64,000 nucleotides of DNA. Source: Planctomycetia bacterium (GTDB taxonomy: Bacteria; Planctomycetota; Planctomycetia; Pirellulales; JALHLM01). The stretch covers positions 1 to 64,000 of the forward strand of contig JAWXBP010000223.1 of the NCBI GenBank assembly GCA_034440135.1, written 5' to 3'. The notes below the pieces were generated by a model, which saw only the letters and a program-made list of their open reading frames with translations, ran no database searches and was not told the DNA's origin. Of the stretch, positions 1,703 to 41,099 are shown one piece after another. Every line of letters starts with the position of its first letter. Position 1 is the stretch's first letter. The position numbers were made by a program, and so were the translations under genes.

Positions 1703-1899
1703 GTAGGTCAGGCACCCCGGTCGAAGCCAAGGCGCGTTGCGCCTTGTTGAGGTCAACCAACATCCCCAATTCAGGCTCGCTATTTGCCTGACAGATCGAC
1801 GCTTGGTCCCGTCAGGCAATTGGCCAGCATCGATTCCGGATGCCGCCGTGGTTGATTTCGATGCCGCCCTTTTTTCTTCAACTGGGGTGCCTGACCTAC
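1703..1899. repeat. R1 palindromic element, copy a (BIME-like, 197 bp)
   Basis: Perfect 16-bp terminal inverted repeats, GTAGGTCAGGCACCCC and its complement, bound the element. In the middle (1784-1819) lies a second inverted pair, TTGCCTGAC and GTCAGGCAA. Each half can therefore be read as GTAG followed by a hairpin whose arms are GTCAGGCA and TGCCTGAC, with the halves in opposite orientation. Other copies are at 19961-20158, 40068-40270 and 40897-41099. It fills the gap between convergent genes. Confidence 0.85.
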
Positions 1900-7456: not shown

Positions 7457-7811
7457 TTCACCACGGAGAGCACGGAGGACACGGAGCAGAGAGTGATTTC
7501 GTTTTTCACCGCGGAGGCGCTGAGACGCAGAGGAGAGAGGGAGGGAGGGAATGTCGAAGTTCGAAATCCGAATGTCGAATCAAATCCGAATGACGAATGC
7601 TTAAATGTCCCGCTACCGACCAGCGCACTCGAATCGTGATGGCACTTGGCCTTCAGTCCTTCGTCATTCAGACATTCGACATTCATTCGTCATTCGGATT
7701 TCGAACTTCGACATTCCCCCCACTCCTTTCTCTCTCCGCGTCTCAGCGCCTCTGCGGTGAAAAATGCCACTCCCCTCTCTCCTCCGTGTCCTCCGTGTTC
7801 TCCGTGGTGAA
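7457..7811. repeat. Concentric triple palindrome (R7 with nested families, about 355 bp)
   Basis: Three unrelated palindromes are nested. The outermost arms are TTCACCACGGAGAGCACGGA and onward (7457-7486), matched by its complement at 7782-7811 with one mismatch in 30. The middle arms are TTCACCGCGGAGGCGCTGAG and onward (7506-7535), matched at 7731-7764. The inner arms are GGAATGTCGAAGTTCGAAAT and onward (7548-7590), matched at about 7667-7717; this is the R8 family found alone at 30686, 34595 and 50022. With a terminator to its right it explains most of the 617-base gene-free stretch 7412-8028. Confidence 0.85.
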
Positions 7812-9009: not shown

Positions 9010-9038
9010 TTGACAAACGGAATTGCCCCAGTTAGCGT
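9010..9038 (+). promoter_or_regulatory. Putative promoter of the riboswitch transcript
   Basis: A consensus TTGACA at 9010-9015 is followed, after 17 bases, by a weak TAGCGT at 9033-9038. A transcript starting about seven bases later would begin just where the riboswitch fold begins. The -10 element is poor, so this is tentative. Confidence 0.35.
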
Positions 9039-9044
9039 GATGGG

Positions 9045-9245
9045 CGATGTGTGCTGGTGGTCGGTCGTGAAATCGCTTTCCGATCGACGAACAGGGAACT
9101 CCGGTGAGATTCCGGGACGGCCCCGCCGCTGTAAGTGAGCACACGGTCGCCACTCTTAGAAACCATTGCCACCTTGATGACTTGGTCGTCGCGGCGGCGA
9201 GAAGGTCTGGCGAACCGGCTCACGAGTCAGAAGACCTACCAGTGC
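9045..9245 (+). promoter_or_regulatory. Cobalamin (B12) riboswitch
   Basis: The conserved boxes of the cobalamin aptamer appear in order. They are AGGGAA at 9092-9097, CCGGTGAGATTCCGGGACGG at 9101-9120 with CCCCGCCGCTGTAAG following, GCCACT at about 9148, the GGCGAGAAGG block near 9195-9204, and the terminal ACGAGTCAGAAGACCTACC near 9222-9240, the B12-box equivalent. Such RNAs bind adenosylcobalamin or related corrinoids and normally lower downstream expression when the ligand is abundant. The first gene downstream is the DUF1559 protein starting at 9319, so the cluster of three exported proteins is the likely target. I could not fold the expression platform reliably. Confidence 0.92.
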
Positions 9246-9318
9246 GTTAACGGCGGATTGTTTCGCGAGGGCGAAACCCGCAACGACCGTTCGCTCTAAC
9301 CCCAGTCGACGGTAGGTC

Positions 9319-10264: not shown

Positions 10265-11152
10265 GTGCGTTGTTATCTAAGTTTGTTGTTGCTCGCTTTA
10301 ACCTCGACGGCCGTCGGTGGGCCGGTCGATAACTTTGACGACATTCAATTCTGGACAGGCGATGGCGCCCATCGCGCGGCGTTGGTTGTCGACTGGGTTG
10401 AAGGCTCCGCCGAGGACGAAAGTCGTGTCTGGGGTTATCGCTGGGACGGCGAGGCCAAAGGTTCCGACATGTTCCTGGCGATCCTGGAAGCCGATCCTCG
10501 ATTCTTTGCCAAAGTGCCAGGAAACAGCGGTACCATCAGCGTTGTCTTCGGCATCGGTTATGACGACGGCGACCTGGATTTCGCGCTCGACGACGGCACG
10601 GCGTTCGATGACAAGGGCCTCGCCGACGTCTCGGGATCAGCGGACGGCGCTGTTCCTTTGGATCCTGAAGACGTCTATGAGGAAGGTTGGTTCCTCGGCT
10701 TCTGGCATTACGGCGTGGCAGACAGCAGCCCGTTCGGCGGCGGCGCGTGGTCGAGTTCCGGACTTGGCGCATCGAGTCGCGTGCTCACCGACGGCGCCTG
10801 GGACAGTTGGGCCTTCACGCCAACGTTCGATTTCAGCGCGTTTGCGGAGAATCCCCATGCTGCGCTGCGTGCAATTAACGCCGTGCTTGGCGACACGGAC
10901 GGGGACGGCCAGGTGAACGTCGAGGACCTGAACAACGTTCGCAACCATTTCGGCGGCGGCGGATTGGGCGATACGGACGGAGATGGCGCCGTCAACGTGA
11001 GTGATCTGAACAACGTGCGTAACAACTTTGGCGCAGGAGTTCCCACCGCCGTCGTGCCGGAGCCCGCTTCCTGGGCGTTATTGTCGATCGGACTAGCGGC
11101 GATTAGCTCGCGTCTCTTACGTCGAAATCGCTTCGGCCTGGTCCAGCATTGA
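10265..11152 (+). CDS. Secreted PEP-CTERM protein with two dockerin-type repeats
   Basis: A 295-residue exported protein with a short signal peptide ending near TAVGG. The main domain contains WTGDGAHRAALVVDWVEG, VWGYRWDGEAKGSDM and AILEADPRFF. By recollection, similar WGYRWDG domains occur in exported proteins next to corrinoid-regulated genes in other phyla; I could not check this. Two dockerin-like calcium loops follow, DTDGDGQVNVEDLNNVRNHF near 210 and DTDGDGAVNVSDLNNVRNNF near 236. The protein ends with a VPEPASWALLSIGLAAIS sorting signal and an Arg-rich tail. The start is the GTG at 10265. It is probably cotranscribed with its neighbours under the riboswitch. A surface protein able to dock to cohesin-like partners is inference. 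Confidence 0.82.
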   Translation: MRCYLSLLLLALTSTAVGGPVDNFDDIQFWTGDGAHRAALVVDWVEGSAEDESRVWGYRWDGEAKGSDMFLAILEADPRFFAKVPGNSGTISVVFGIGYDDGDLDFALDDGTAFDDKGLADVSGSADGAVPLDPEDVYEEGWFLGFWHYGVADSSPFGGGAWSSSGLGASSRVLTDGAWDSWAFTPTFDFSAFAENPHAALRAINAVLGDTDGDGQVNVEDLNNVRNHFGGGGLGDTDGDGAVNVSDLNNVRNNFGAGVPTAVVPEPASWALLSIGLAAISSRLLRRNRFGLVQH

Positions 11153-19960: not shown

Positions 19961-20158
19961 GTAGGTCAGGCACCGCCGCCGAAGCCGAAATCGCGGCAGC
20001 TTTGTATTCGCATCCAGCGTCCAAAATGCATGCGCATGGCGTGCCTGACATGGAAACGGCGCCGTCCATTGTCAGGCACAGATTCCGCATCGTTTCGGAC
20101 GTCAAGATATCGTCGCAGAGCGCCGCGCGAATCGCTTCGGCTGCGGTGCCTGACCTAC
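19961..20158. repeat. R1 palindromic element, copy b (198 bp)
   Basis: Arms GTAGGTCAGGCACCGC and complement; the pairing continues to about 25 bases with one mismatch. Inner pair GTGCCTGAC at 20041 and GTCAGGCAC at 20071. It has the same outer and inner layout as the other three copies, and it lies between convergent genes. Confidence 0.85.
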
Positions 20159-40067: not shown

Positions 40068-40270
40068 GTAGGTCAGGCATACCGCGCCCAATGCCCGCGC
40101 GTGTTCTTGCACGACAACGTAAGCGGAGGAACGTTCCATCATGCGGGGATTGCCTGACGGGAGCGACGTCGATACTAAGTCAGGCAATCCCAGCTCGGCG
40201 CTTCGGTAGTCGCTGCCAACCACCGCCTTGGGCATGCATCACCTATCAGTATGAATTTTACCTGACCTAC
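40068..40270. repeat. R1 palindromic element, copy c (203 bp)
   Basis: Left arm GTAGGTCAGGCAT, right arm ATTTTACCTGACCTAC (one mismatch). Inner hairpin GGGATTGCCTGAC at 40146 and GTCAGGCAATCCC ending at 40191. Very close to copy d at 40897-41099 and the same length. It begins three bases after the uvrC stop codon. Confidence 0.85.
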
Positions 40271-40338
40271 AATTCTGCATATCACCAAATAATGATGGAG
40301 TCAGAGCGGGGATTGCCTCGCAGAATTGGAGCTACTTG

Positions 40339-40887
40339 ATGCGACGAGCCCTAACGCTATTGGAAGTCCTGATTGTCCTATTCATCATTGCCGGCCTACT
40401 GGCGTTGCTGACACCGGCGCTCATGCGATCAAGAGAATCCGCGCGGCGGGCGAATTGCGAGAGCAATCTTCGCCAACTCAGCATGGCGATGCGGATGTAC
40501 ATTGACGCTTATCGGCGCGTGCCGGAGCGGCCTGACGGAGTTCAACTGGGCGGATGGTCGGTGGCCTTATTGCAATTCCTGGAGCAGAAGGAGACGGCGG
40601 CGGCGATTATGGCCGGCTCGCCGGTGGCGAACGAATTGCCCACGATCTTGCGCTGCCCTTCCGTAGTGCGAGAAACAGAATCTGGAATCCCCCGTGCACA
40701 TTACGCCTTGGCGACCAACTCCAACCGCGATGTCTGGAGGATTGGCGATGCTCCGTTGGGTTTCGGCGAGCACTGGCTATCCGGTCCAGAAGTTCATTTC
40801 GATGACTGGCGGACCAAGCCTGGCCCGCATAGTGGCGGTTCGCTCGTAACGAGTACCGATAGCTCCGTGGAATTTCACTCGCCTTGA
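40339..40887 (+). CDS. Short DUF1559/pseudopilin-like protein, degenerate C-terminus
   Basis: A 182-residue protein with a pseudopilin-type N-terminus (RRALTLLEVLIVLFIIAGLLAL) followed by the DUF1559 signature SRESARRANCESNLRQLSMA. The family normally extends to about 300 residues and ends with the H-x9-DG motif. Here the end reads KPGPHSGGSLVTSTDSSVEF: the His and glycines remain but the DGH part is lost, and the middle is shortened. The start is the ATG at 40339. The gene lies between two R1 copies, one beginning three bases after uvrC and the other nine bases after its own stop codon. Confidence 0.8.
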   Translation: MRRALTLLEVLIVLFIIAGLLALLTPALMRSRESARRANCESNLRQLSMAMRMYIDAYRRVPERPDGVQLGGWSVALLQFLEQKETAAAIMAGSPVANELPTILRCPSVVRETESGIPRAHYALATNSNRDVWRIGDAPLGFGEHWLSGPEVHFDDWRTKPGPHSGGSLVTSTDSSVEFHSP

Positions 40888-40896
40888 TTCAATTCG

Positions 40897-41099
40897 GTAG
40901 GTCAGGCATGTCGCGCCCAAAGCCAGCGCGCCGTCTTGCACGATTGTGAAAGCGATTGACAGTTCCATCATGCGGGGATTGCCTGACGGGAGCGACGTCG
41001 ATACCAAGTCAGGCAATCCCAACTCGGCGCACCGGCAGCCGCTGCTAACTACGGCCTTGGGCACGCAGCGCCTATCAGTATGAATTTTGCCTGACCTAC
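40897..41099. repeat. R1 palindromic element, copy d (203 bp)
   Basis: Same outer arms (GTAGGTCAGGCATG left, TTTTGCCTGACCTAC right) and the same inner hairpin (GGGGATTGCCTGAC at 40974, GTCAGGCAATCCC ending at 41020) as copy c. The block from CATCATGCGG to CTCGGCGC is almost identical in both, and the right ends share CCTATCAGTATGAATTTT. Confidence 0.85.

Follow-up and report, generated by a model that had tools for sequence, protein, structure and literature searches.

REP and BIME elements are mobile repeats that occur in hundreds of copies in bacteria. The closest described relatives of the repeat analysed here, R1, belong to the GTAG REP super-family with its REPtrons, which includes members in Planctomycetes (Di Nocera et al. 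2013, PMC3733652); R1 shares with them the GTAG head, a stem of 8-9 bp, the arrangement in inverted doublets with GTAG outside, and a RAYT gene flanked by copies of the repeat. Loops in that super-family are mostly 2-15 nt long (with an inner complementary tract of up to 27 bp in Bradyrhizobium), whereas those of R1 measure 65-73 nt and display no conserved self-complementarity. The REPINs of Pseudomonas fluorescens SBW25 (Bertels and Rainey 2011, PMC3116915) are likewise replicating inverted doublets served by a RAYT in trans, as proposed here for R1, and their ends are better conserved than their interior, as in R1. However, they consist of two short hairpins and a spacer, whereas R1 carries variable DNA within each hairpin and a near-palindromic linker of 18-21 bp between the two.

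The REPtrons of E. coli and Marinomonas (TnpA_REP group 2; PMC8266576, PDB 4er8) encode a nuclease homologous to that described below. Marinomonas REPs (38-42 nt) resemble R1 in their large, poorly conserved loops; E. coli REPs need a bulge in the stem, whereas R1 has perfect stems and a loop several times as long. The closest published idea to the turnover reported here is the REP orthoswitch of fluorescent pseudomonads and stenotrophomonads (Nunvar et al. 2013, PMC3686654), in which, as here, different REP classes go with the same RAYT lineage in related genomes and new classes partly replace old ones. The orthoswitch was deduced from RAYT-flanking REPs and copy numbers, whereas the replacement described below was followed at individual orthologous sites. 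Neither the spread of REPs nor the succession of one class by another has a known mechanism according to the literature (PMC3686654, PMC8266576). The sequence-only reading from which we started had considered a REP/BIME system with such long loops in Planctomycetota to be undescribed. Since GTAG REPs have already been reported from Planctomycetes (PMC3733652), novelty appears to be confined to the long loop and the in-place turnover, and no report of site-by-site REP replacement was found in the literature searched, outside which most subscription papers fell.

The window, that is the whole stretch of 64,000 nucleotides analysed, lies on contig C223 of a genome of 7.29 Mb in 534 contigs (G000). 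It was compared with G001, a Pirellulales MAG (JALHLM01, 83% complete) and the only other genome of the genus in the comparison. The window contains the following R1 features.

1703-1899: R1 copy 1, 197 bp, inverted pair, both halves of subfamily A; linker 1793-1810; inner arms 1785-1792/1811-1818
1703-1792, plus strand: left half of copy 1; GTAG and stem GTCAGGCA (1707-1714)/TGCCTGAC (1785-1792), 70-nt loop
1811-1899, minus strand: right half of copy 1; GTAG and stem 1888-1895/1811-1818, 69-nt loop
19961-20158: R1 copy 2, 198 bp, both halves of subfamily B with a 9-bp stem; halves 19961-20049 (plus) and 20071-20158 (minus); inner arms 20042-20049/20071-20078
40068-40270: R1 copy 3, 203 bp, subfamily C; halves 40068-40158 (plus) and 40179-40270 (minus); inner arms 40151-40158/40179-40186
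40336-40887, plus strand: open reading frame between copies 3 and 4, TTG start, 183 aa, DUF1559 (PF07596)
40897-41099: R1 copy 4, 203 bp, subfamily C; halves 40897-40987 (plus) and 41008-41099 (minus); inner arms 40980-40987/41008-41015

All four copies proposed from the sequence alone are thus present, and each consists, as proposed, of a pair of inverted halves, each about 90 nt long and made up of GTAG, an 8-bp stem (GTCAGGCA/TGCCTGAC) and a long loop. Every copy has exact inner arms, TGCCTGAC...GTCAGGCA. The outer arms, GTAGGTCAGGCA/TGCCTGACCTAC, had been described as common to every copy; they are exact except for the right arm of the copy at 40068-40270, which reads GTAGGTCAGGTA (one mismatch). 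The four copies had also been treated as one uniform set, which did not hold: copies 3 and 4 belong to the divergent subfamily C with GGATTGCC inner ends, and resemble each other far more than they do copies 1 and 2. Copies 2 and 3 start 13 and 3 bp past the stop codon of an open reading frame, that of copy 3 being UvrC-like. The only Rfam match in the window was a cobalamin riboswitch (9038-9257, plus strand; RF00174, 81 bits), and none was obtained at R1. Two further repeats were seen in the window. At 7457-7811 an imperfect palindrome of about 355 bp with nested arms of 37-60 nt (79-95% complementary) and TTCACCACGGAG... ends represents a second dispersed family, unrelated to R1, with many copies on both strands of G001; the segment at about 10884-11034 has several 71-78% matches elsewhere in G001 and is another dispersed repeat.

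Next we determined the abundance of R1. The window holds 13 matches to the outer 12-mer (up to 2 mismatches) against 2.5 expected, and none of 100 shuffles had as many; the whole-genome count in G000 gave 37 exact 12-mers versus 2 for the reversed pattern. Exact R1 halves numbered 32 in G000 and 128 in G001, with none for the reversed patterns in either, and a covariance model revealed at least 54 and at least 139 halves, respectively, so that the further copies looked for do exist. Weaker covariance-model matches occurred in G009 (30) and G184 (5), two genomes whose short-loop REPs have this stem; the long-loop form was not found in any searched genome besides G000 and G001. A GTDB-wide scan with subfamilies A and B, outside which the records of the window genome possibly fell, returned JALHLM01 only, together with two single chance-like hits.

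An inverted partner was present for 91 of 100 anchor halves in G001 and 18 of 22 in G000, mostly at a spacing of 18-21 bp; the linker core of subfamily B has the consensus CGACGTCG. Subfamily A starts with GGCACCC and has AAATTGCC or TAATTGCC at its end; subfamily B starts with GGCACCG, and a G before its final TGCC closes a ninth pair (C-G); subfamily C mostly starts with GGCAAA and has GGATTGCC at its end, with A-T as ninth pair. Halves of A and B are combined within single elements. Solitary halves also occur (C72, C309 and L007/L168, the last conserved in both genomes), which makes the half, rather than the full element of 200 bp, the structural unit. R1 displays GTAG next to a palindrome, high copy number and inverted doublets with GTAG outside, all traits of GTAG REPs and BIMEs; the short unit of 20-40 nt with a short loop that marks canonical REPs is not seen. 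Because its halves measure about 84-95 nt and its loops mostly 65-73 nt, we regard R1 as a variant and not as a canonical REP.

Among 183 distinct halves, GTAG and the 8-bp stem arms were conserved at about 94-100% per site (most sites above 97%), and loop identity between the genomes averaged 62%. All 20 arm bases were exact in 79 of 100 partner halves in G001, where a RAYT is present, and in 12 of 22 in G000, where none was found. RNAalifold recovered the stem only, with no conserved structure inside the loop, and no excess of pairing between the two outer flanks of R1 elements was detected. Single halves folded as DNA gave z values of about -0.5 to -2.9, which we count against the reading preferred below.

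Mobilization by a RAYT had been proposed from the GTAG ends, with a RAYT gene flanked by copies of the same hairpin as the expected trace. Both RAYT genes of G001 have R1 on either side: the one on contig C21 lies between complete elements (L083:1212-1409 and 2019-2215), and that on C365 has an R1 half downstream and a subfamily C pair upstream. Their products, P0002 and P0003, match the NCBIfam model REP_Tyr_transpos (NF047646) with 186 and 191 bits (cut-off 80). P0002 aligns to TnpArep (PDB 4er8) with E=2.6e-42, its HuH motif DHLH falling on EHMH and its Y..NP motif HFDYIHFNPVKHG on HVDYIYINPVKHG. G001 thus shows the two-sided flanking and the HuH/Y1 transposase of the RAYT clade that characterize a REPtron, and the enclosure of both TnpArep homologues by R1 supports the REP/RAYT reading.

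The situation in the window's own genome is different. No RAYT of the G001 lineage was detected in G000 at E<=1e-20, which again counts against the preferred reading. Where the ortholog would lie, the locus is disrupted: R1 relics remain on C437 (right-hand) and C214 (left-hand), and no RAYT is present; G000 has likely lost this gene, an assembly gap being a possible alternative reason. The case for R1 activity rests on the sister genome, not on the window's own species. A search for Y1_Tnp domains in G000 yielded five genes, of which only P0001 (C285) lies beside R1, with one half 66 bp behind its stop codon. We rejected P0001 as the cognate enzyme: it belongs to a distant RAYT lineage, and because such GTAG hairpins are missing near its closest relatives, in G009 and G184, the neighbourhood is treated as incidental. 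Directly upstream of P0001 lies an inverted repeat GGGTGCCACTGGCGGCTCGTCCGCCAGTG... (L034:1184-1362), possibly its own repeat.

The RAYT family of G001 was found in 46 of 196 genomes searched. GTAG hairpins (stem of at least 7, loop of 2-16 nt) were located within 400 bp of 21 of 31 RAYTs of this lineage, on both sides in 17, compared with 0 of 31 in controls at 900-1300 bp and 0.3% in shuffled flanks; perfect stem pairing was a condition of this search, and the evidence is the two-sided placement. Stems differed between genera while their pairing was maintained (GTCAGGC/GCCTGAC, GTCAGGT/ACCTGAC, GGTCCGC/GCGGACC, GTCATGC/GCATGAC, GCCGGGT/ACCCGGC and others). Mapped on the RAYT tree, the stem class changed 10 times against a shuffled mean of 17.9, with 0 of 200 shuffles as low, the class labels of a few loci resting on a one-sided hairpin. 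Covariation, suggested earlier as a check of the structure, was silent within R1 because the stem is nearly invariant; support came instead from these RAYT-flanking REPs of other genera. Long loops beside RAYTs were limited to G001 (66-71 nt) and, in another form, G009 (45 nt), and therefore GTAG plus the stem foot is the general signature in common and the long loop the innovation. The G009 case is an independent RAYT locus on C81 with at least three copies of GTAG REP doublets with 45-nt loops (L090:1309-1475, 2080-2245 and 2819-2973), and gives the order a second lineage of long-loop REPs.

We then compared R1 sites between the two genomes, which are about 80-95% identical in shared regions. 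Both also carry a short-loop BIME, named S, a pair of GTAG-GTCAGGCT-TTCC-AGCCTGAC hairpins in the layout GTAGGTCAGGCT-TTCC-AGCCTGAC, a spacer of about 22-55 bp, then the inverse; S halves number 51 in G000 and 16 in G001. S and R1 have the GTAG-GTCAGGC foot in common, with GTAGGTCAGGC at both ends. The joined flanks of 31 R1 elements of G001 were searched in G000, known R1/R1 sites being excluded, and both flanks were recovered together at ten sites, seven of which hold S in G000. At the other three (G001/G000), G000 has a different repeat (L143/L242), is empty (L146/L244), or is without R1 and about 45 bp (L159/L254). Two further sites from the reading of S loci brought the S/R1 sites to nine (G000/G001: L246/L129, L245/L134, L241/L137, L243/L145, L255/L161, L249/L170, L240/L127, L262/L154 and L258/L173), in a comparison of two MAGs of one genus whose loci were sampled via R1- or S-bearing contigs, which biases the proportions of site states. 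The flanks of the nine sites are 78-95% identical, and the alignments end 0-46 bp from the G000 junction, at 6 of 9 sites within 4 bp on at least one side.

The polarity of the replacement is based on remnants at three sites. At L127 the left hairpin of S remains in G001 and R1 occupies the place of the right one, and at L137 and L145 a truncated GTAGGTCA end is left outside R1; these remnants of an older GTAG element make R1 the newcomer at those sites. Ortholog flanks of the window copies at 1703 and 19961 were not found in the 83% complete G001, and six further R1 sites of G000 had at most one ortholog there. Two other sites deserve mention. A palindromic repeat CTAGCCCGACGCGCAAGCGAGGG... 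occupies L001:2535-2700 in G000 where G001 has R1 (L148:3157-3355), and replacement may thus extend beyond the two REP families S and R1. At L146:1245-1442, R1 is bordered by an imperfect direct repeat of about 23 bp (CTTGC..CATCGAGAC.GT.TAG) that is single in the empty G000 site L244, the only duplication-like insertion scar seen.

With regard to half swapping and REARRANGEMENT, orthologous R1 halves of G000 and G001 fall into two sets. In one, loop identity is 0.74-0.87 and none, or hardly any, of the 139 G001 halves is closer than the ortholog; in the other, identity is at the background level of 0.56-0.66 and 24-128 unrelated halves are closer. The left half of L028, whose inner arm is damaged in G001, fits neither set clearly. 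At L004/L143 the left half is kept and the right half is of another subfamily (A versus B). The extreme case is the window segment 40068-41099, where G000 has two subfamily C elements enclosing the DUF1559 gene and G001 a single subfamily B element with the same junctions. The two flanks of L010 have their G001 matches on different contigs (L160 and L140), and those of the G001 element L166 are split between two contigs of G000; rearrangement breakpoints therefore coincide with R1. Beside R1 we also observed a palindromic family, TTGTGGCACGGTCTCCCGACCGTGCCAC... (L006:1620-1780, L012:2079-2255, L003:430-530 and L007 near 940-1000), which at L006 stands in place of the right R1 half, the left half being orthologous in G001.

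Together, these data make it very probable that R1 is a GTAG-tagged REP doublet, a non-autonomous element of the BIME/REPIN type with a long variable loop, and that its dispersal depends in trans on a RAYT belonging to the TnpA_REP lineage. In such an element the usual short loop of each hairpin would be replaced by a variable one of 65-73 nt, and the RAYT would recognise GTAG and the stem foot and tolerate any loop. The enzyme would cleave single-stranded REP DNA beside the hairpins and could join the ends of different REPs with a common foot, so that new copies would often overwrite a resident REP, or half of one, instead of entering virgin DNA. For the exchange step we favour catalysis by the RAYT at the shared GTAG-GTCAGGC ends. 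By analogy this would be plausible because E. coli TnpA_REP cleaves and recombines single-stranded REPs between C and T in vitro, and the loop of E. coli REPs has a structural role only (PMC8266576). The broader proposal, that RAYT doublets spread largely by overwriting resident REPs and that R1 converts S sites half by half, is put forward tentatively, as possible but still doubtful.

The main rival for the exchange step is short-homology gene conversion, single-strand annealing via the 11-12 bp arms, or RecA acting via the roughly 70% similar elements, with no part for the RAYT. It may well be correct, and we place it only somewhat short of probable: the GTAGGTCAGGC ends common to S and R1, the 60-75% loop identity among R1 copies and the breakpoints inside R1 at L010 and L166 would all fit homologous recombination, and REP evolution by this route was proposed by Higgins et al. 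1988, as cited in PMC3116915. However, homology between S and R1 amounts to just 11-12 bp per end, the exchange of single halves extends across divergent subfamilies (L004/L143), and the R1 count is high and the arms are seemingly better preserved where the RAYT is present.

Independent insertion of S and R1 into shared hotspots, for instance a preferred target just 5' of GTAG or positions behind stop codons, is unlikely. Such hotspots would agree with a weak preference for YYC before GTAG, at both ends of the element, seen in R1 (C or T in 117 of 150 flanks at -1 and 128 of 150 at -2) and shared by S (C in 24 of 32 at -1). By our own estimate, however, the nine coincidences, given about 26 pairs of S and about 70 of R1, compare with about 0.4 expected by chance over about 5000 intergenic spacers, and GTAG ends or remains of S lie outside R1 at L127, L137 and L145. 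Moreover, GTAGGTCA remnants (up to 2 mismatches) occur just outside R1 in the same orientation at 26 of 148 flanks versus 2 in the opposite one (8 and 4 in distal controls). Finally, the view of R1 as a MITE whose 12-bp terminal inverted repeats serve a DDE transposase, for instance one with a TA target (G-TA...TA-C), and whose inner arms are subterminal binding sites, was rejected as highly improbable despite the perfect inverted ends, the length of about 200 bp and the TA within GTAG/CTAC, since, as the sequence-only reading had it, no target-site duplication was detected (flanking direct repeats of at least 3 bp in 0 of 75 elements with both flanks, about 1.2 expected by chance), every transposase between R1 copies is a RAYT, no DDE gene or parent element with the same ends was found in the R1 loci read, the G before TA is conserved in 181 of 183 halves, and solitary halves are conserved between genomes (L007/L168).

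Two sister genomes with different REP families at the same positions, partial replacements and remnants constitute a direct record of the process, and the R1/S sites supply concrete test substrates for REP spread and replacement. R1 further shows that GTAG and the stem foot persist with very diverse loops, so that hairpin searches limited to short loops miss such families. If exchange by the RAYT is correct, the REP orthoswitch would owe its physical mechanism to such overwriting, and the long loop would amount to passive or foreign DNA that a swappable hairpin cassette tolerates.
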